A stretch of 55,176 nt of DNA from Gammaproteobacteria bacterium (GTDB lineage: Bacteria; Pseudomonadota; Gammaproteobacteria; Steroidobacterales; Rariloculaceae), in contig JAJDVG010000034.1 of the NCBI GenBank assembly GCA_022826245.1, positions 1 through 55,176 of the forward strand. The letters are read 5' to 3'. Below are positions 14,956-36,001 of the stretch, piece after piece. The notes under the pieces were generated by a model, which was not told where the DNA came from, ran no database searches, and saw only the letters and a program-made list of their open reading frames with translations. How positions within the stretch are numbered: position 1 is the first letter of the stretch; every line of letters starts with the position of its first letter. The translations under genes and the position numbers were made by a program.

Positions 14956-16983
14956 ATGGAACGAACGATGGCGAAACGAACGACGACTCGAGCAACGGCA
15001 AAGGGCGGTGTGGCGACAGCGCGGCGCTACGCGAGGACGGTGCTTGCAACGCTGGCGGCGTTGCTTGCTGTCCCTGCCGCACAGGCTCAGCACGGCGCGG
15101 TCGATGGCGAGTGGCGTTTCTATAACGGCGACAGCGGCGCGACCAAGTACTCGCCGCTCGATCAGATCGACCGGGACAACGCCGCGCAGTTGCAGATCGC
15201 CTGGCGGCGCCCGCCCGTCGATGCATCGATTCTCGACCAGGCGCCGGACCTGCGCTACGGCAACAGCTTCCGGGCAACACCGATCATGGTCGACGGCGTG
15301 CTCTACGCGCCGAACCCGATCGGCTTCGTCGAAGCGTTCGATGCCGGTACGGGCGAGACGATCTGGGTCGAGGAACCGTTCGCGGGCGGCGCCGAGGGCT
15401 ACCGCGGCACGGGCACGCGCGGCGTCTCCTGGTGGGGCGAGGGCGAGGAGGCGCGCATCCTCCTGCAGCGCGGCGAATACCTCATGGCGCTCGATCCCGC
15501 GACCGGCGAACGCATCGAGCACTTCGGCGACGGCGGGCGCGTGAACCTGAGCGATGCCCTTCCGGGCGGGCTCGTGCATGCCTGGAGCGGTATTCCGTTC
15601 GTCGCGCGCGACGTCGTCGTGGTCGGCCATACGACCAACGACACGTTCGCCGCGATGGAGGCTCCCCGCGGCGACACCCGCGCCTACGACGTGCGTACGG
15701 GCGAGCTGCGCTGGGTCTTCCACGTCATCCCGCAGGGCGGCGAATTCGGCGTCGAGACCTGGGAAGACGGTTCCTGGGAGTACACGGGCCACGGTTCCGT
15801 CTGGTCGATCTTCAGCGCCGACGAGGAGCGCGGCATTCTCTACATGCCGATGTCCTCACCGACCAGCGACATGTACGGCGGCCACCGTCCGGGCGACAAC
15901 CTCTACGCCCAGGCCGTCGTTGCTGTCGAAGCGGAAACCGGCGAGCGGCTCTGGCACTTCCAGACGATCCGCCACCCCCTCTGGGACTACGATCTTCCGG
16001 CCGCGCCGGTGCTCATGGACATCACCGTCGACGGCCGCGACATCGAGGCGGTTGCCGTGGTCACGAAGCAGGCGTTCGTCTACGTGCTCGACCGCGTGAC
16101 CGGTGAACCGGTGTGGCCGATCGAAGACCGGCCCGTGCCGCAGTCGGACGTACCGGGCGAGGTGACCGCGGCGACGCAGCCGTTTCCGACGAAGCCGCCG
16201 CCGTTCGACCTGCAGGGCTCCACCGAGGACAACCTCATCGACTTCACGCCCGAGCTTCGCCAGGAGGCGCTCGAGATCGTGTCGCGCTATACGATCGGAC
16301 CGCTGTTCACGCCGCCGACGATCCGCGACGACGGTCCGGGCGGCAATCTCGGCACGATCCAGTTGCCGGGCTCGCAGGGCGGCGCCAATTGGCACGGCGC
16401 GGCATTCGATCCCGAGACGCAACGCTTCTACGTACCTTCGGAGACCGGTCCGTTCGTGGCCGACATCGAGCCCGGCGATCCCGACTTCACGAACCTGCGC
16501 TACGTCAAGGGAACGCGGCTGTGGATGGGCGGACCGCAGGGGCTGCCTTTGTTCAAGCCTCCGTACGGGCGCATCACGGCGTATGACATGAGTGCCGGCG
16601 GAATCCTCTGGCAGGAGCCGAACGGGCAGGGGCCGACCGATCATCCGGCGATCCGCCATCTGAACCTCGGTCCGCTGGGCAATCCGGGACGTCCGGCGCC
16701 GCTACTGACCAGGACGCTGCTCTTCGCGGGCGAAGGTTCCGACGCGATGATCGTTGCCGGCCGACTCCAGCCCGGCCAGCCGCTCGAGACCGCGCCGAGC
16801 TACGGCGAACCGATCTTCCGCGCCTGGGACAAGGCGACCGGCGAAATCGTCGCCGAGATCGATCTGCCGGCCGGCACGACCGGTGCGCCGATGACCTACA
16901 TGCACGAGGGCAGGCAGTACATCGTTGTTGCCGTCGGCGGCAGAGAGGTCGCTCCGGAGTGGATCGCCCTGAGTCTGCCGTAG
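14956..16983 (+). CDS. Exported PQQ-dependent dehydrogenase (eight-bladed quinoprotein)
   Basis: A periplasmic quinoprotein of about 675 residues. After a long basic N-region a hydrophobic signal (TVLATLAALLAVPAAQAQ) is followed by the family opening DGEWRFYNGDSGATKYSPLD. Repeated propeller blades carry W-docking motifs such as GLVHAWSGIPFVAR and VWSIFSADEERGILYMP. The segment HPLWDYDLPAAPVLMDITV is strongly conserved in glucose-dehydrogenase-type PQQ enzymes. There is no N-terminal membrane domain and no heme-binding CxxCH, so it is a soluble form needing an external acceptor. It would oxidise an alcohol, polyol or aldose to the aldehyde or lactone. ATG 14968 is a possible alternative start. 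It is the last gene of the plus-strand run. Confidence 0.87.
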   Translation: MERTMAKRTTTRATAKGGVATARRYARTVLATLAALLAVPAAQAQHGAVDGEWRFYNGDSGATKYSPLDQIDRDNAAQLQIAWRRPPVDASILDQAPDLRYGNSFRATPIMVDGVLYAPNPIGFVEAFDAGTGETIWVEEPFAGGAEGYRGTGTRGVSWWGEGEEARILLQRGEYLMALDPATGERIEHFGDGGRVNLSDALPGGLVHAWSGIPFVARDVVVVGHTTNDTFAAMEAPRGDTRAYDVRTGELRWVFHVIPQGGEFGVETWEDGSWEYTGHGSVWSIFSADEERGILYMPMSSPTSDMYGGHRPGDNLYAQAVVAVEAETGERLWHFQTIRHPLWDYDLPAAPVLMDITVDGRDIEAVAVVTKQAFVYVLDRVTGEPVWPIEDRPVPQSDVPGEVTAATQPFPTKPPPFDLQGSTEDNLIDFTPELRQEALEIVSRYTIGPLFTPPTIRDDGPGGNLGTIQLPGSQGGANWHGAAFDPETQRFYVPSETGPFVADIEPGDPDFTNLRYVKGTRLWMGGPQGLPLFKPPYGRITAYDMSAGGILWQEPNGQGPTDHPAIRHLNLGPLGNPGRPAPLLTRTLLFAGEGSDAMIVAGRLQPGQPLETAPSYGEPIFRAWDKATGEIVAEIDLPAGTTGAPMTYMHEGRQYIVVAVGGREVAPEWIALSLP

Positions 16984-18305: not shown

Positions 18306-21278
18306 ATGAAACATCGACTATTGGCCAGGCTACCGGTCGGCGCACTTGCGTCGGCTTGCGCCGCGATCCTCGCTCCGCCGAGCGTGATGGCTCAGGATGG
18401 CGGTGAACTTGAAGAAATCGTCGTAACCGGCTCGTTCATCAGCCGCCCGGCGGACCGGCCACAGCCGGTCCAGATACTCGATGCCGCCGAGATTCGCGCG
18501 GGCCAGCGCGTGACCGTCGCCGAGGTCGTGCGCGACATGCCGCAGATCTCCACGGCCAACGTCACAAGCAACTGGCAATCGGCCACGAACAGCATCAACA
18601 TGCGCGGCCTGGGCAGCCGGTCGACGCTGGTGCTCCTGAACGGTCAGCGCATGACGATCGATGCCAATGCCGGTTCGCAGGTTGACGTCAACAATCTCGC
18701 GCCGAGCATCATGCTCGAGCGCATCGAGATGCTGCTCGACGGCGCCTCGGCGCTGTACGGCTCCGACGCCGTCGCGGGCGTGATCAATTTCCTGAGCCGC
18801 GATACCTTCGAGGGATTCGAATTCAACGTGTCGAGTCAATGGGCGGAGACTCAGACCGACACGCCCGAAATCGTCACCTCGGGAATCTTCGGCACCGGCG
18901 ACAGTGACTCGCACCTCGTCATGGCCTTCGAGATGCAGCGCCGCGATGACAAGCTGCAGGAAGAAGACCGCTTCGGGCCCGAACGCCTTTCGACCGGCCT
19001 GATCACGGCGCTGTGGAACCCCGGTACCTTCCTCGCCGCGCCGGGCGCGCCCCGGCCGGGTTGGCACCGCGACCCGCTGTGCAGCAGCCCTGAGATCGGC
19101 GGTACGCCCGACACCAGCGACATTACCGATCCGGCGGGCTTCATCAGCGGCCCGTTCTGTCGCGGGCTGTTGAGCCTGCAGCGCACGAATACGCCGGAGC
19201 AAACGGCGCTGACCGGCATGGCCGTGTTCACGCAGGATTTCTCCGGCGGAGGGCTGGACCGCTTGCGCGTCGAGACGAACTTTGCGCGCGCCGAATCGCA
19301 GTCAAGCTTCGGCACCGGCGTCCCGCTGCTGTCGCTGCCGAGCGTATCCGGCCAGATTCCCGTGCTGCCGAGCACCAATCCGGGCGTGCTGGACGCGCAC
19401 GTACGCTCGGGCGGTACATTTCCGGTGCAGGACTTCGGCCGCGTGTTCAGCCGTCAGTTGAGTCCTCTCGACGGCGATGACGCTTCGCTCGACAGTGCGA
19501 GCACCCAGAACACCTACCGCGTCGCCGCAAGCCTCGAAGGCGCGTTCAGCGATACCTGGAACTGGCGGTTCACGGGCACGTTTTCGCAGAACGACCAGCG
19601 CAACAATCCGAACGATACGATCACGGACCGCTACATGCGGGCGCTGCAGGGCTACGGCGGGCCGGCGTGCAAGTGGAACTTCGTGCAGGGCGCACTCAAC
19701 GATCCGAACATTCAGCGGGGCGTCGGAAGCTGCCAATACTGGAATCCGTTTGCGAGCCGACTGATCGCCGATCCCACCGACGAAAGCCCGATCGATCCGA
19801 GCGATCCGAACTCGCCGCCGAAGCGCACGCTCTACAACTCGCCCGAACTGCTCGACTGGATGATGTTCGGCGGCCAGGACATCAACGAATCCCGGTTCAC
19901 GTCCTTCGAGTTCCTGACCACGGGCGAACTGTGGGAGATGGCTGGCGGTGCGACGGGCATCGCGCTCGGCGCACAGGTCCGCAATCAGGAACTCAAGGTC
20001 GGCGTCGACCAGATCCAGAAGGACGGCGGCTTCGGCTTCAGTCCGCAGATCCTGAGAGACTGGAACGCGCAACGCGACACCGAAGCCTTCTTCGCGGAGC
20101 TGGTCATGTTTCCGCACGAGGATTTCGAGATCGATATCGCCGCGCGCCGGGAAGAGACGCTGGGCATCAGTTCCACGGAACCGAAGCTCTCGCTGCTGTG
20201 GACGCCCGCGGACAATCTCTACTTCCGCGCGACCGCAGGCTCGTCTTTCCGCCTTCCTTCGGAGAATCACCTGTTCGGTATCGGTCCGGGTTCGGTCGCG
20301 CGCGACACGATCGGCGGCGAGGTCACGCAGGCCGTCGGCATCGCGGTCGGTAACTCGAACCTGCGCCCCGAGACCTCGGACAACTTCACGGTCGGCTTCA
20401 CATGGGACATCACCGACAACTTCACGGTGGATCTGACGTACTGGGACTACGAGTTCACGGATCTCGTCGCCTCCACGAACGCCGAGACGACGCTCAGGCT
20501 CGACCTGGCCGATGGTTGGGTCAACGCGGGTCCGAACAATTCCAATCCCGTTTCTCGCGAGGACAGCCCGCATCCGTTGTTCCCGGGGCGGCCGAACGAG
20601 TATTGCGAGGTCACCCGCGGCTGGAGTTTCATTGACGAGAATGACGATGAGCAGGCCGATATTCCGCTGCCGGAAGGTTGCGTGACCGGGTTCGACTTCG
20701 AGATCTTCCGCTCGAGTTGGCAGAACCAGGAAGTCATCATCACGAACGGCTTCGACCTGACGCTCGATTGGCGCAGGGACTTCGGTCAGCACCGTGTGGG
20801 GGCGCGCTTCATCGGGTCCTTTACCGAGGAATACTCCGGTATCGACCTGGTCAATGACGACGGCGAGACGCCGCAGTATGCGGGCCGCGTGGCCGGCAGG
20901 CTGCGCAACGTCGTCGGGACCAATGCCGATGGCGTCTCCGGCGTGTCGGGCAGCAACCCGGACCTCAGGGCCAACCTGATCCTGACGTACGGTGTGGGCA
21001 ATCACAACCTCCGAGGCACGATCCGCTACACGTCGGGCATCGAAAACGTCGATCCGAATCCGCTGGAATCCCGGTGGGATGAGGGCGCCTACACGCAACT
21101 CGACCTCGTCTATGATTGGGATGTGCCGCTGAGCCGACCGGCGACCCTGTCGTTCGCGATGATCAACGCGACTGACGAGGAGCCGCCGCTGAACCCGAAC
21201 GGCCTGGTCACGTATACCCAGAGCCTCTACGACGGCCGCGGACGCATGTTCCGGCTCATGTGGAATCAGGGCTTCTGA
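18306..21278 (+). CDS. TonB-dependent outer-membrane receptor
   Basis: A 22-stranded outer-membrane transporter of 990 residues. The signal peptide (1-29) ends at SVMAQ. The TonB box EEIVVTG is at 36-42. The plug domain follows, with VTVAEVVRDMPQIS, INMRGLGSRSTLVLLNGQRM and IEMLLDGASALYGSDAVAGVINF. The C-terminus ends in Phe (RMFRLMWNQGF), the usual BAM signal. The plug form (EIVVTGSFI, then ADRPQPVQILD) is common in receptors of marine and sphingomonad-like bacteria for carbohydrates, siderophores or hydrophobic ligands. The barrel gives no ligand clue. It is monocistronic with a strong terminator 46 bases downstream. Confidence 0.93.
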   Translation: MKHRLLARLPVGALASACAAILAPPSVMAQDGGELEEIVVTGSFISRPADRPQPVQILDAAEIRAGQRVTVAEVVRDMPQISTANVTSNWQSATNSINMRGLGSRSTLVLLNGQRMTIDANAGSQVDVNNLAPSIMLERIEMLLDGASALYGSDAVAGVINFLSRDTFEGFEFNVSSQWAETQTDTPEIVTSGIFGTGDSDSHLVMAFEMQRRDDKLQEEDRFGPERLSTGLITALWNPGTFLAAPGAPRPGWHRDPLCSSPEIGGTPDTSDITDPAGFISGPFCRGLLSLQRTNTPEQTALTGMAVFTQDFSGGGLDRLRVETNFARAESQSSFGTGVPLLSLPSVSGQIPVLPSTNPGVLDAHVRSGGTFPVQDFGRVFSRQLSPLDGDDASLDSASTQNTYRVAASLEGAFSDTWNWRFTGTFSQNDQRNNPNDTITDRYMRALQGYGGPACKWNFVQGALNDPNIQRGVGSCQYWNPFASRLIADPTDESPIDPSDPNSPPKRTLYNSPELLDWMMFGGQDINESRFTSFEFLTTGELWEMAGGATGIALGAQVRNQELKVGVDQIQKDGGFGFSPQILRDWNAQRDTEAFFAELVMFPHEDFEIDIAARREETLGISSTEPKLSLLWTPADNLYFRATAGSSFRLPSENHLFGIGPGSVARDTIGGEVTQAVGIAVGNSNLRPETSDNFTVGFTWDITDNFTVDLTYWDYEFTDLVASTNAETTLRLDLADGWVNAGPNNSNPVSREDSPHPLFPGRPNEYCEVTRGWSFIDENDDEQADIPLPEGCVTGFDFEIFRSSWQNQEVIITNGFDLTLDWRRDFGQHRVGARFIGSFTEEYSGIDLVNDDGETPQYAGRVAGRLRNVVGTNADGVSGVSGSNPDLRANLILTYGVGNHNLRGTIRYTSGIENVDPNPLESRWDEGAYTQLDLVYDWDVPLSRPATLSFAMINATDEEPPLNPNGLVTYTQSLYDGRGRMFRLMWNQGF

Positions 21279-32365: not shown

Positions 32366-32875
32366 TCAGGAGGCCGGGAGCAACTCCATGACCTCGGTTG
32401 CGAGCTCCGGGTAGGTGATCGGCCGCTTGTGGATATGCACGCGGTTACCGGCCGTGTCGAAGATCAGCGTCATCGGCATCTCGCCGTACCAGGAATCGAG
32501 CACGGCCTCATAGAACGTCTCGTCTACCGTCGATGCGAGCAGGACCGGAAACGGCGGATCGAAGTTCTGCAGAAACTCCCGGATGTCGGCCATTTCCTCG
32601 GGGTAGTTCATCGAAACCGCCAGAACCTCCAGCCCGTCGTCCCGGTAGCGGTTGTAGACATCGATGATGTCGGGGAACTCACGCAGGCAGGGCGGGCACC
32701 AGGTCGCCCAGAAGTTGACGACCACGACCTTGCCTTCGTTCTCTGCAACGAGCGCGGCAAGATTCTCCGGCGTGACCACGGGAATTTCCTGCGCTCCGGC
32801 AGCGAGCGAGCAGGCCGCGGCAACGGCGGCGCATGAAGAAACGAGCCAACGGGGTCTGCCGATTGTCGCCTTCAT
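32366..32875 (-). CDS. TlpA-like periplasmic thiol-disulfide oxidoreductase
   Basis: A 169-residue thioredoxin-fold protein with a signal peptide (ending LAAGAQE) and the redox site WATWCPPC (Cys60, Cys63), followed by LREFPDIIDVYNRY. The cis-Pro loop GEMPMTLIFD is intact. TlpA/ResA-type proteins reduce disulfides in the periplasm, for instance in cytochrome c maturation or copper-site assembly. It is the last gene of a minus-strand operon with the thioredoxin-like protein (35-base gap) and the rhodanese (2-base gap further up). The operon starts 257 bases from, and divergent to, the UGSC selenoprotein gene. Confidence 0.9.
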   Translation of the reverse strand: MKATIGRPRWLVSSCAAVAAACSLAAGAQEIPVVTPENLAALVAENEGKVVVVNFWATWCPPCLREFPDIIDVYNRYRDDGLEVLAVSMNYPEEMADIREFLQNFDPPFPVLLASTVDETFYEAVLDSWYGEMPMTLIFDTAGNRVHIHKRPITYPELATEVMELLPAS

Positions 32876-32910: not shown

Positions 32911-33471
32911 CTAGGGAGTGTTGTCTGCCATCATCAGCTCGGTGGCGTCCACGACGCGACCGAACTCCTCGGCACGGATATCTGCGACGTTGTCGACGAC
33001 AAAACGATTGACGGTCACGAGAAACGTGTTGTCGATCTCGGGGTTTATTTCGTAGAGGCGCATCGCGACGTCTCGCGGACCCCGCCTGAACACGACCAGC
33101 GGAATCTCGAGCCCGGCCGACGCGCTGAGCTCCTCCAGCCAGGGCGAGGCTTCTTCGCCGGCCACGATCGCGGCCACGGCCTTGAAGTCCTCGTTCTTGT
33201 GGCGCAGGTACAGTTCGTCGAGTTGCCTGATCAGTTCCGCAGTCTCGTCGCCTGTGTCGCGAAAGAATGCCAGCACGTTCGGCACGTCCTGGAACTCGCA
33301 GACGTAGCAGATACGCTGGCCGGCGTATTCGCCCGTGACGTCGAGCACGGGTATCGAGGCCGTCGGTGAACCGATCTCAAGCCCGGAAATCGAACTCTGT
33401 GCCCAGGCCGCCGTGGCGACGAGCGCGGCGCAGCAGGTCAGGCCCGCAATTCTTGTTGTTGTTGGCGTCAT
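32911..33471 (-). CDS. Exported thioredoxin-like protein with CYVC site
   Basis: A 186-residue exported protein. The signal peptide ends AAWAQ. Near the mature start is GEYAGQRICYVCEFQDVPNV, a CxxC (Cys55, Cys58) at the position of a thioredoxin-fold active site. The pattern VLAFFRDTGDETAELIRQLD, then FKAVAAIVAGEEAS and LEIPLVVFRRGPRDVAMRLY, also fits a thioredoxin fold, with the cis-Pro in IPLVV. It differs from TlpA in lacking the WCxxC tryptophan. It lies between the rhodanese (2-base gap) and TlpA genes on the minus strand. Probable role: periplasmic thiol exchange with a partner encoded nearby. Confidence 0.75.
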   Translation of the reverse strand: MTPTTTRIAGLTCCAALVATAAWAQSSISGLEIGSPTASIPVLDVTGEYAGQRICYVCEFQDVPNVLAFFRDTGDETAELIRQLDELYLRHKNEDFKAVAAIVAGEEASPWLEELSASAGLEIPLVVFRRGPRDVAMRLYEINPEIDNTFLVTVNRFVVDNVADIRAEEFGRVVDATELMMADNTP

Positions 33472-33473
33472 CC

Positions 33474-33968
33474 TTACAAATCCTCTTCGACAGCGAGCCC
33501 CGCGGTTTCAAAGCCGAGATCGAGCCACTCGAACCATCCGCCTTCGAGCACCTTGACGTCGAGATAACCGACCAGACCGAGTTTCTGGGCCATGTCCACG
33601 GAGTCTTCGTGGTCGTTGCAGGCGCAGTAGATCACGAGCGTCTTGTCGCGCGGCAGGGTGACCGGGAGGCTCAGTTCATGGACCCAGGGGAAGTTGACCG
33701 ATCCCGGAATGCGCTCGTCTTCGAAGATGAGTTCGGCCGCCGTGTCGACGATGACGATTTCGTCCGATTCTTCATCCATCAACGACTTCAATTCGTGCGG
33801 CGACATGAAATCGGGTACGTAGACGTAGCCCTCGATACACTCGCCGTCGACGAACACGCAATCCTCGAAGTCGTCGTCCTGCGCCAGCGCAGAACCTGCC
33901 GCGAGCAAAGCGCTCACCAATCCAACTGCCAACAACGAGGGTCGTCCGCCAGCGCTGCGCGTCATCAT
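33474..33968 (-). CDS. Exported rhodanese-like protein
   Basis: A 164-residue single-domain rhodanese with a signal peptide (SLLAVGLVSALLAAGSALAQ). The domain reads IVIVDTAAELIFEDERIPGS, VNFPWVHEL, then the active loop KTLVIYCACNDHED with the persulfide-forming Cys115, and VKVLEGGWFEWLDLG. A second Cys two residues later in the loop (CAC) is unusual. An extra Cys pair occurs near the mature N-terminus (EDCVFVDGECIEG). It would carry sulfane sulfur in the periplasm. AAGGAGGA precedes ATG 33968. It is the first gene of the three-gene redox operon and is divergent from the selenoprotein gene. Confidence 0.87.
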   Translation of the reverse strand: MMTRSAGGRPSLLAVGLVSALLAAGSALAQDDDFEDCVFVDGECIEGYVYVPDFMSPHELKSLMDEESDEIVIVDTAAELIFEDERIPGSVNFPWVHELSLPVTLPRDKTLVIYCACNDHEDSVDMAQKLGLVGYLDVKVLEGGWFEWLDLGFETAGLAVEEDL

Positions 33969-34171: not shown

Positions 34172-34225
34172 ATTGGCTCTCTTCGAACGTCCAAAAACTT
34201 GCTTTTCGCGCAGAGGGGTATGGCC

Positions 34226-36001
34226 ATGCGGTTGTTCAGGCAGGCAATTCTGACGGCAGGGGGAATGCGCGCACGGCGCTTCAGGCGCCTGGGACTGGGT
34301 CTGGCGCTTGCGTTCGGCGGGGCCTCGGTCCTGACCGAAGCGGCCGCGCAGACGGATGAGCGGCTCTATACCGTTCATAACCCCACGGGTATTGCGCCCC
34401 CGATCGAGCGCAGGGCCATGGCGCCGCGCCCGGAGAGCCTCGACGGCAAGACGATCTATCTCGTCGACGTGACCTTCAATGGCGGCGATCTGTTTCTCAT
34501 GGAGATGGAGAAATGGATGAAGGCCAACATGCCCGAAGTCAACGCGATCTATCGCGTCAAGCGGGGCGCCTACAGCCGGGACGACCCGGAACTGTGGCGG
34601 GAGATCCAGTCCGTAGATGGCCTCATGGTGATGGCCATAGGCCATTGAAGCACCTGTGCGCCGGCGGTCGTCGGCCATGTTGCTGAAGTTGAAGCGAATT
34701 ACGGAATTCCGGCCGTCGGCGTCATCGTCGACGCTCTCACCGACCTCGTGCAGGACAAGGCGCTCGAGGAGGGCATGCCCGGCCTGCGGCTCGCGTTCAC
34801 GCACACGCCCGTCGGCGGCAAGACGCCCGCGGAGCTTGCCGGGTACATCGCCGGTTACGACCCGGTCAACAATGTCCCCCTCATGGAGGAGATCGTCGGT
34901 CACCTGACCCGTCCCCTCAACGAAGAGGAGCTGACGACGGGAATATTCGAGCGGACGAAGCGCGATTTCATCGGTCCCGACACGCGGGACAACCTGCAGC
35001 GCTACTTCGATGACCGGTTCTGGAGCGACCAGCTGCCGATCATCATGCCGACCGAGGAGCGCGTCAACGCGATGCTCGCCGGCACGTCGCGCGACCGCGA
35101 CGAGGTCATCGGCCAGATGCGCGTCACGGGGACGCGCGAGGCCTGGGAGTACACGGTCGAGACGGCCGCGATCAACGCGGTCATGGCGGGCGCGAAACCC
35201 GAGCATTTTCCCGCGATACTCGCGCTTGCCGGAACGCGCACCAACGCGCGCTCGAGTTCGACCTCGTCGATGACGGCCATGGGCGTTTTCAACGGGCCGA
35301 TCGTCGATGAACTGCTGCTGAATTCAGGGACCGGCGCGCTCGGGCTCTACGACAACGCCGGTGCGCTGATCGGGCGCGCCTGGGGGCTGTTGTCGGGGAA
35401 CGTCACGGGCGGTTCCGTGCCCGGCCACACCTATCTCGGTGTGCAGGGCAACCCCATGAGCGCTGTGCCAGCCGTGTTCGCGGAGAACGTCGACGGGTTG
35501 CCCGAAGGCTGGGATCCGTTGCATGTGCAGAAAGGCTTCGCCAGTGACGAGAGCGTCGTCAGCACGTTCTCGGGCTGCCAGAGCCAGAACACGATGATGG
35601 TCCTGCGGGACGAGGACTGGGAGTGGGTGCTGCAGCGCTTCATCGGCGGTCTGGGTCCGCCGAATCGCGGCTCCAAGATGCTCCTCATCGACCCGGCCGT
35701 GACGGCGCCGTTCCTGCGCTTCGGCTTCGACACCAAGGAAAAGCTCATCGACTGGGTCAAGCAGAACGTCACGACGCCGAAATACCACTACTGGCTCGAC
35801 CAGGAGGTCATCAACTACAAGCTCGGACCGGCCCGCGCGGGACGAGAGCCTTACGCGACGTGGCTGAGCCTGCCCGATGACGCGCCGATCCCCTACCTCG
35901 AGAGGGTCGAGGTCGTCGTCGTCGGCGGCAGCGGCAATATCAGGTGGAGCGTCAACGAATGCGGCTACAGCAGAAGCGTGGCCGTGGACGACTGGCGGTA
36001 A
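34226..36001 (+). CDS. Exported UGSC-family selenoprotein (in-frame TGA at residue 141)
   Basis: A 591-residue protein if TGA 34646-34648 is decoded as selenocysteine. After an N-terminal signal (RRLGLGLALAFGGASVLTEA, cut near AAAQ), residues about 48-180 match my recollection of UGSC (seleno)proteins: VHNPTGIAPP, APRPESLDGKTIYLVD, then LMVMAIGH-U-STCAPAVVGH and YGIPAVGVIVDAL. Here the U-G-S-C motif is U-S-T-C (Sec141, Cys144). The frame is open across and after the TGA for another 450 residues. It includes AINAVMAGAKPEHFPAILAL and a C-terminal region of unknown role. A SECIS-like hairpin with a GGUC loop follows the TGA. ATG 34226 has AGAGGGG 7 bases upstream (ATG 34220 is closer). The biochemical function of the family is unknown. 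Conventional calling would split it into two ORFs. Confidence 0.88.
34656..34678 (+). promoter_or_regulatory. Bacterial SECIS hairpin with GGUC loop after the UGSC UGA
   Basis: GCCGGC (34660-34665) pairs with GUCGGC (34670-34675) in a 6-bp stem with one G-U, closing a 4-base loop GGUC (34666-34669). A lower GUG/CAU stem (34656-34658 with 34676-34678) adds three pairs beside a bulged C. The loop G-G-U falls at +18 to +20 after UGA; in Escherichia coli fdhF the equivalent GGU is at about +19 to +21, so spacing and loop agree closely. Confidence 0.75.

Follow-up and report, generated by a model that had tools for sequence, protein, structure and literature searches.

A probably exported UGSC-family selenoprotein candidate whose selenocysteine domain resembles that of glycine and proline reductases

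The window analysed here is the whole 55,176-nucleotide stretch at positions 1 to 55,176 (forward strand) of contig JAJDVG010000034.1, from assembly GCA_022826245.1 of a Gammaproteobacteria bacterium of the family Rariloculaceae. At 34226..36001 on the + strand it contains a gene for a 591-residue fusion of a UGSC domain with a second conserved domain, and the gene very likely does encode a selenoprotein, as a variant within a known family. Codon 141, the one in-frame TGA, is nearly certainly decoded as selenocysteine (Sec), an assignment on which homologues, persistence of the TGA, a family-wide hairpin, the Sec machinery and co-occurrence with selA agree. From profile comparison, the UGSC domain is most likely a distant relative of the Sec domain of GrdB and PrdB of the glycine and proline reductases. 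The protein is probably exported, as judged from its N-terminus, and lies close to genes for three redox proteins that also have signal-like N-termini.

A predicted selenocysteine codon within a fusion gene

The TGA at 34646-34648 (context GH-U-STC-AP) is the sole internal stop of the frame, which is terminated by TAA at 35999-36001 after a further 450 residues. Translation of the frame therefore bears out a preliminary description of this DNA, made from the letters alone, in which a TGA interrupts a 591-codon frame with about 450 coding residues downstream. An in-frame ATG at 34220, preceded by a GAGGGG stretch, is a start of equal quality. The same description saw no plausible start after the TGA, which holds only in part, since GTG 34748 opens an open reading frame (ORF) of 417 codons. 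Among the best 120 of 2326 matched database proteins, 119 are 400-445 amino acids long and thus too short to extend back to codon 141. Elsewhere in the window TGA serves as an ordinary stop, terminating 4 of the 11 other genes checked.

The in-frame TGA aligns with a cysteine codon in the homologue P0002, a protein of 593 amino acids that is 75% identical over its full length and has Cys at 141. The genome also encodes two paralogues, 43 and 39% identical, whose single TGA falls in the corresponding motif, and in G001, G002 and G009 the orthologues likewise contain exactly one TGA, making an assembly error, which had been named as a way in which the prediction could fail, very unlikely. A comparison of homologues at this column had also been proposed: in 119 UGSC rows from fetched loci, some of which are one gene fetched twice, column 141 holds TGA in 100, a Cys codon in 18 and a gap in 1, so that Sec or Cys is found in 118 of 119. 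On a tree of 70 rows (56 Sec, 14 Cys) from nine named phyla, Sec and Cys interchanged at least five times, all five being forced by well-supported branches. The window protein, P0002 and L037 (Terriglobia), the nearest named relative outside the window's genus, form one fully supported group on this tree.

The window's own genome has selA, selB, selD and tRNA-Sec, all scoring over cut-off and all on contig C5. selA over cut-off is present in 30/34 genomes with Sec-type rows versus 2/16 with Cys-type rows (Fisher p = 3e-7). The four Sec-type genomes in which selA is not over cut-off include G069, the genome of L037, and incomplete assembly may explain these misses. The two Cys-type genomes with selA are G078 (L049), from the record series that also contains the Sec-type L058, and G060 (L090), which has GrdB genes. 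Genes for Sec synthesis also occur in the vicinity of UGSC fusions, as though much of the Sec made went into these proteins: SelD-type genes lie at L055:9713-11998 and L061:9914-10954, one of them fused to a Pyr_redox_2 domain, and SelA genes account for 3 of 98 neighbour proteins.

Downstream of the TGA, at 34660..34675 on the + strand, GCCGGC-GGUC-GUCGGC is predicted to form a bacterial Sec insertion sequence (SECIS) hairpin with a 6-bp stem and a GGUC loop (34666-34669). A hairpin with this loop had been described at the right distance from the TGA; it is present, and it is strong as a family trait and weak as a single sequence. Alone, the window hairpin is unexceptional (z -0.97, with 32 of 200 shuffles folding at least equally well; p = 0.057 against synonymous-codon shuffles), and no Rfam family reaches the gathering score in the window. 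Across 110 distinct rows, in the stretch 12-36 nt after codon 141, median stability is -10.4 kcal/mol for 92 Sec rows versus -4.3 for 18 Cys rows (p = 1.3e-8), and p <= 0.05 against synonymous-codon shuffles is reached by 44 of the Sec rows and none of the Cys rows. Within the U-S clade (25 distinct rows), 132/150 pair cells form (88%), with 15 pair types, against at most 103/150 and 13 pair types when the stem is slid as a control. The GGUC loop is found in 23 of these 25 rows, and eight Cys relatives of the clade keep 1-4 of the six stem pairs.

The N-terminus of the fusion, MRARRFRRLGLGLALAFGGASVLTEAAA, is hydrophobic and passes a crude in-house signal-peptide rule; orthologue N-termini look similar by eye. 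On these two grounds the signal peptide proposed earlier is plausible. It is predicted to span residues 1-41 (34226..34348, + strand), ending in AAA before Q, and includes a twin-arginine stretch, RRFRRLGLG.

The UGSC domain, its partner and the glycine and proline reductases

Residues 50-205 (34373..34840, + strand) match the Pfam UGSC family PF24696 with 78.3 bits against a cut-off of 25. A search with family profiles, as the preliminary description had suggested, thus places the protein in the family by the Pfam model; its score with the NCBIfam equivalog NF041046 is 54.2 against a cut-off of 125 bits, and the stand-alone UGSC protein of L023 reaches 130.4 bits with that model. Like other family members the window protein has a UGSC domain with a UxxC motif, in which the first position is Sec or Cys; it differs from them in its sub-equivalog score, its C-terminal fusion, its predicted signal peptide and its motif, which is U-S-T-C in place of the literal U-G-S-C. 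The description of USTC as a variant of UGSC stands, and it is no lone oddity: 31 of the 119 rows carry it (a few being duplicate genes), and among fused rows it is the commonest motif. On the Chloroflexi contigs L084, L086 and L089, three to five UGSC fusions lie close together, which suggests substrate diversification.

Alignment with hhalign of a profile of 74 UGSC rows to one of 6 GrdB-type rows gave a probability of 96.8 over 69 columns, with Sec placed on Sec and Cys on Cys. In a rerun the probability was 96.5, falling to 95.4 with the Sec column masked and to 93.8 with both Sec and Cys masked. The unmasked score was 68.5, compared with at most 17.9 in 60 column-shuffled controls and 23.3 in a reversed control, so that at the level of profiles the Sec domain is similar to that of GrdB and PrdB. 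Reading of GrdB and short PrdB-like sequences taken from fusion-bearing genomes showed U-x-x-C followed by E-x-x-G-x-P at matching spacing, which is one residue longer in the window protein. One stand-alone UGSC relative weakly matches TIGR01917 around its motif (E = 0.065). The genomes of L118-L121 and L123, which hold UGSC fusions, also encode short PrdB-like proteins with U-P-x-C; that of L118 scores 176 of the 300 bits needed with the PrdB model TIGR04483 and so falls below its cut-off.

Catalysis in the glycine and proline reductases involves a pyruvoyl group on GrdE, the partner subunit of GrdB, or on PrdA, which activates a carbon of the substrate for attack by the selenol. By analogy, the UGSC domain may share this chemistry. 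The second Cys of the motif, Cys144 (34655..34657, + strand), is the probable resolving cysteine. The fusions of L080 and L082 (Dehalococcoidia/Chloroflexi), with U-S-G-A or U-P-G-A, retain the Sec codon and have lost this Cys, and a simple Se-S resolving mechanism does not account for them.

The second domain covers approximately residues 252-591 (34979..35998, + strand) and has no Pfam or NCBIfam model; two stand-alone copies that were scanned likewise matched neither database. It had been described as a long C-terminal extension. A conserved continuation of about 450 residues does follow the Sec codon, but it is a separable domain rather than an extension: G006, G013, G018 and G021 encode it in an ORF of its own, adjacent to a UGSC gene that stands alone and carries its own TGA, and adjacent split pairs occur also in G644, G778 and G812. 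Ten positions are invariant in 70 fused rows when Sec and Cys are counted as one, including 141 and, in the C-terminal domain, D268, R384 and E420. The predicted structure of the full protein has a mean local confidence (pLDDT) of 94.6 and a global score (pTM) of 0.92, and that of the C-terminal domain alone a pLDDT of 90.7; no solved structure compared with the latter model matches it well. Contig C1 of G640 holds a close pair of C-terminal-domain copies for which no match to UGSC is listed, scoring having covered 3 of 18 candidates, and L093:9996-10985 is a second copy behind a fusion.

The fusion architecture is probably not new, because Zhang and Gladyshev reported a UGSC/Unknown_1 fusion in 2008 (PMC2398784). 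As in the window, a UGSC domain is there joined to an unnamed conserved domain that also stands alone, and Unknown_1 is probably identical with the C-terminal domain described here. The available text of that paper presumes a thioredoxin-like fold for UGSC proteins and gives no function; it mentions neither export, a relation to GrdB nor donor genes. In its available part, a 2026 review (PMC13188914) lists a UGSC-containing protein in a group whose functions are largely uncharacterised, and names truncated annotation as a general problem; excerpts of other literature containing UGSC give lists or counts. A fluoroacetate GrdB-like operon of Synergistota (PMC10838667) is alike in that its GrdB-related proteins have a proposed substrate that is not glycine, but its abstract mentions neither the UGSC domain nor the C-terminal domain. 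What the present analysis adds is the reading of the UGSC domain as GrdB-type, the finding that its partner domain can stand apart, and candidate donor genes of two kinds in the neighbourhood.

Neighbouring genes as candidate electron donors

Three genes for proteins with signal-like N-termini lie on the - strand beside the fusion. Divergent from it is a rhodanese-like protein of 164 amino acids (33474..33968), followed by a protein of 186 amino acids with a CYVC motif and no Pfam or NCBIfam family (32911..33471) and a TlpA/ResA-like thioredoxin of 169 amino acids (32366..32875). Relatives of the trio follow an exported U-S-T-C fusion in L037 (58, 56 and 36% identity) and an exported U-G-S-C fusion with TGA at the motif in L138 (Gammaproteobacteria), and in L135 (Terriglobia) the trio lies within 5 kb of an exported U-G-S-C fusion that also has TGA at the motif; export of these relatives was judged by eye from their N-termini. 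Within the window's genus, too, the exported trio stands beside exported Sec-type fusions. In the six of 23 fusion-bearing genomes that have the CYVC protein, the rhodanese adjoins it in 6/6, the thioredoxin in 5/6, and 4/6 have a fusion no more than 5 kb away. Distant relatives of the CYVC protein in L139, L140 and L141 (28-32% identity) have an in-frame TGA at the second Cys, giving CYVU; the protein seems, from these sequences, to be a member of a CxxC/CxxU selenoprotein family that lacks a name and has no Pfam or NCBIfam model.

A second kind of neighbour was found in a survey of 211 proteins at 69 loci, with at most four proteins per locus, all within 2.5 kb. At 15 of the loci a thioredoxin reductase (TrxR)-like gene lies on the strand of the fusion, 12 of them within 250 nt. 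All 15, the query among them, match the flavoprotein beside L043, a Pyr_redox_2 protein by Pfam, at E <= 1e-41, and have the motif CASC, CATC or CDWC. The name TrxR-like rests on Pyr_redox_2 and on CATC, a motif of thioredoxin reductases. TctC receptors make up 5/104 and 9/98 neighbour proteins, and together with more solute-binding proteins and two GntR/FCD regulators they look like regulated uptake feeding a reductase. A TonB receptor (18306-21278) is also encoded in the window.

A possible thiol-fuelled reductase and its alternatives

A reductase function of the fusion is moderately likely. We lean, with modest confidence, towards the view that it is a single-chain, extracytoplasmic, thiol-fuelled reductase of the glycine/proline-reductase type that uses Sec141. 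In such an enzyme the N-terminal UGSC domain, whose profile is like that of GrdB, would be the catalytic selenol domain, and the C-terminal domain could bind and activate a small, probably anionic substrate through the conserved D268, R384 and E420. Sec141 would attack the substrate, and Cys144 would resolve the resulting selenium adduct to a Se-S bridge that is then re-reduced. The adjacent TrxR-like flavoprotein would be the electron source for relatives that lack a signal peptide, and the adjacent TlpA-like thioredoxin that for the exported form, with the adjoining CYVC protein and rhodanese as possible further carriers of thiols or sulfur.

Several observations weigh against a reductase of this kind. 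The window protein shares with GrdB (PF07355, TIGR01917) and PrdB (TIGR04483) the Sec-domain profile, the UxxC motif and the spacing to E-x-x-G-x-P, but it is a single chain and has no direct family match: with E values up to 1 allowed, UGSC was the one family matched in Pfam, GRDB being absent, and none of the NCBIfam matches was a Grd or Prd model. The C-terminal domain showed no similarity to an alignment of four GrdE sequences (probability 0.3), so that, if the chemistry is shared, substrate activation must differ. Cys144 is replaced in 7/118 rows, and neither paralogue in this genome begins with a signal peptide, so that export is no family trait. As to the donors, 17 of the 23 fusion-bearing genomes lack the CYVC protein, the trio in L136 and the rhodanese and CYVC pair in L137 had no fusion on the stretch fetched, and a TrxR-like gene was not found at 54 of the 69 loci with at most four neighbours examined at each.

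The fusion could instead be, as Zhang and Gladyshev supposed for UGSC proteins, a thioredoxin-type redox protein with a general role in thiol-disulfide or peroxide reduction, to which the C-terminal domain adds specificity only. The UxxC motif and the thioredoxin-like or TrxR-like neighbours fit this; the listed structural matches, among which a thioredoxin fold was looked for, are Rossmann-like or receiver-like. We consider this unlikely, though it is the strongest of the alternatives. Somewhat less probable is a role for the exported form in handling sulfane sulfur, persulfides or a metal or metalloid compound, which the fusion would reduce while the rhodanese supplied or took up sulfur. Three genomes outside the window's genus again have exported rhodanese and CYVC proteins together with exported fusions, and the best NCBIfam model for the rhodanese is a rhodanese-related (seleno)protein, albeit below cut-off at 68 of 115 bits; but in the loci compared, where other rhodanese types were not looked for, its relatives were found only beside orthologues of the window gene and in L037, and in L135 and L136 the trio sits among quinoprotein-dehydrogenase-like genes, as judged by eye.

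These last genes raise the idea that the fusion assembles or protects periplasmic quinoprotein dehydrogenases and c-type cytochromes. In L135, by eye, a single stretch combines the trio with the exported fusion, two genes of cytochrome-c-like type and two of quinoprotein-dehydrogenase-like type, and the window has a pyrroloquinoline quinone (PQQ)-dependent dehydrogenase (14956-16983, + strand; 588 bits) 17 kb from the fusion. Quinoprotein-like genes also adjoin the rhodanese-CYVC-TlpA set in L136 (by eye). Two of the three fusion copies in the genome, however, lack a signal peptide, and neither the window nor L037 showed a recognisable quinoprotein gene immediately next to the fusion, which leaves this role improbable. 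Hardly credible is the view that the protein is no selenoprotein and that the TGA is erroneous, marks a pseudogene or genuinely separates two genes: an ORF from GTG 34748 and the weakness of the single hairpin would allow it, but the TGA is kept in orthologues and paralogues, a homologue has Cys in its place, the hairpin is family-wide and selA co-occurs.

For the family as a whole, we stop just short of calling it probable that the UGSC fusions are an unrecognised, single-chain branch of the GrdB/PrdB selenol reductases. This branch would span at least eight phyla, aerobic lineages among them. In it a new domain would take over substrate activation from the pyruvoyl subunit, and a periplasmic version would be driven by a thioredoxin-CYVC-rhodanese relay of its own. 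The link to GrdB and PrdB would turn a redox protein of unknown role into one with testable chemistry, selenol attack followed by dithiol recycling, and names its likely electron donors. The lengths of the database relatives, 119 of the best 120 among the 2326 matched, suggest that many entries called "hypothetical protein" are C-terminal pieces of selenoproteins. The exported member, if the reading is true, would be a GrdB-like selenoenzyme working outside the cytoplasm.
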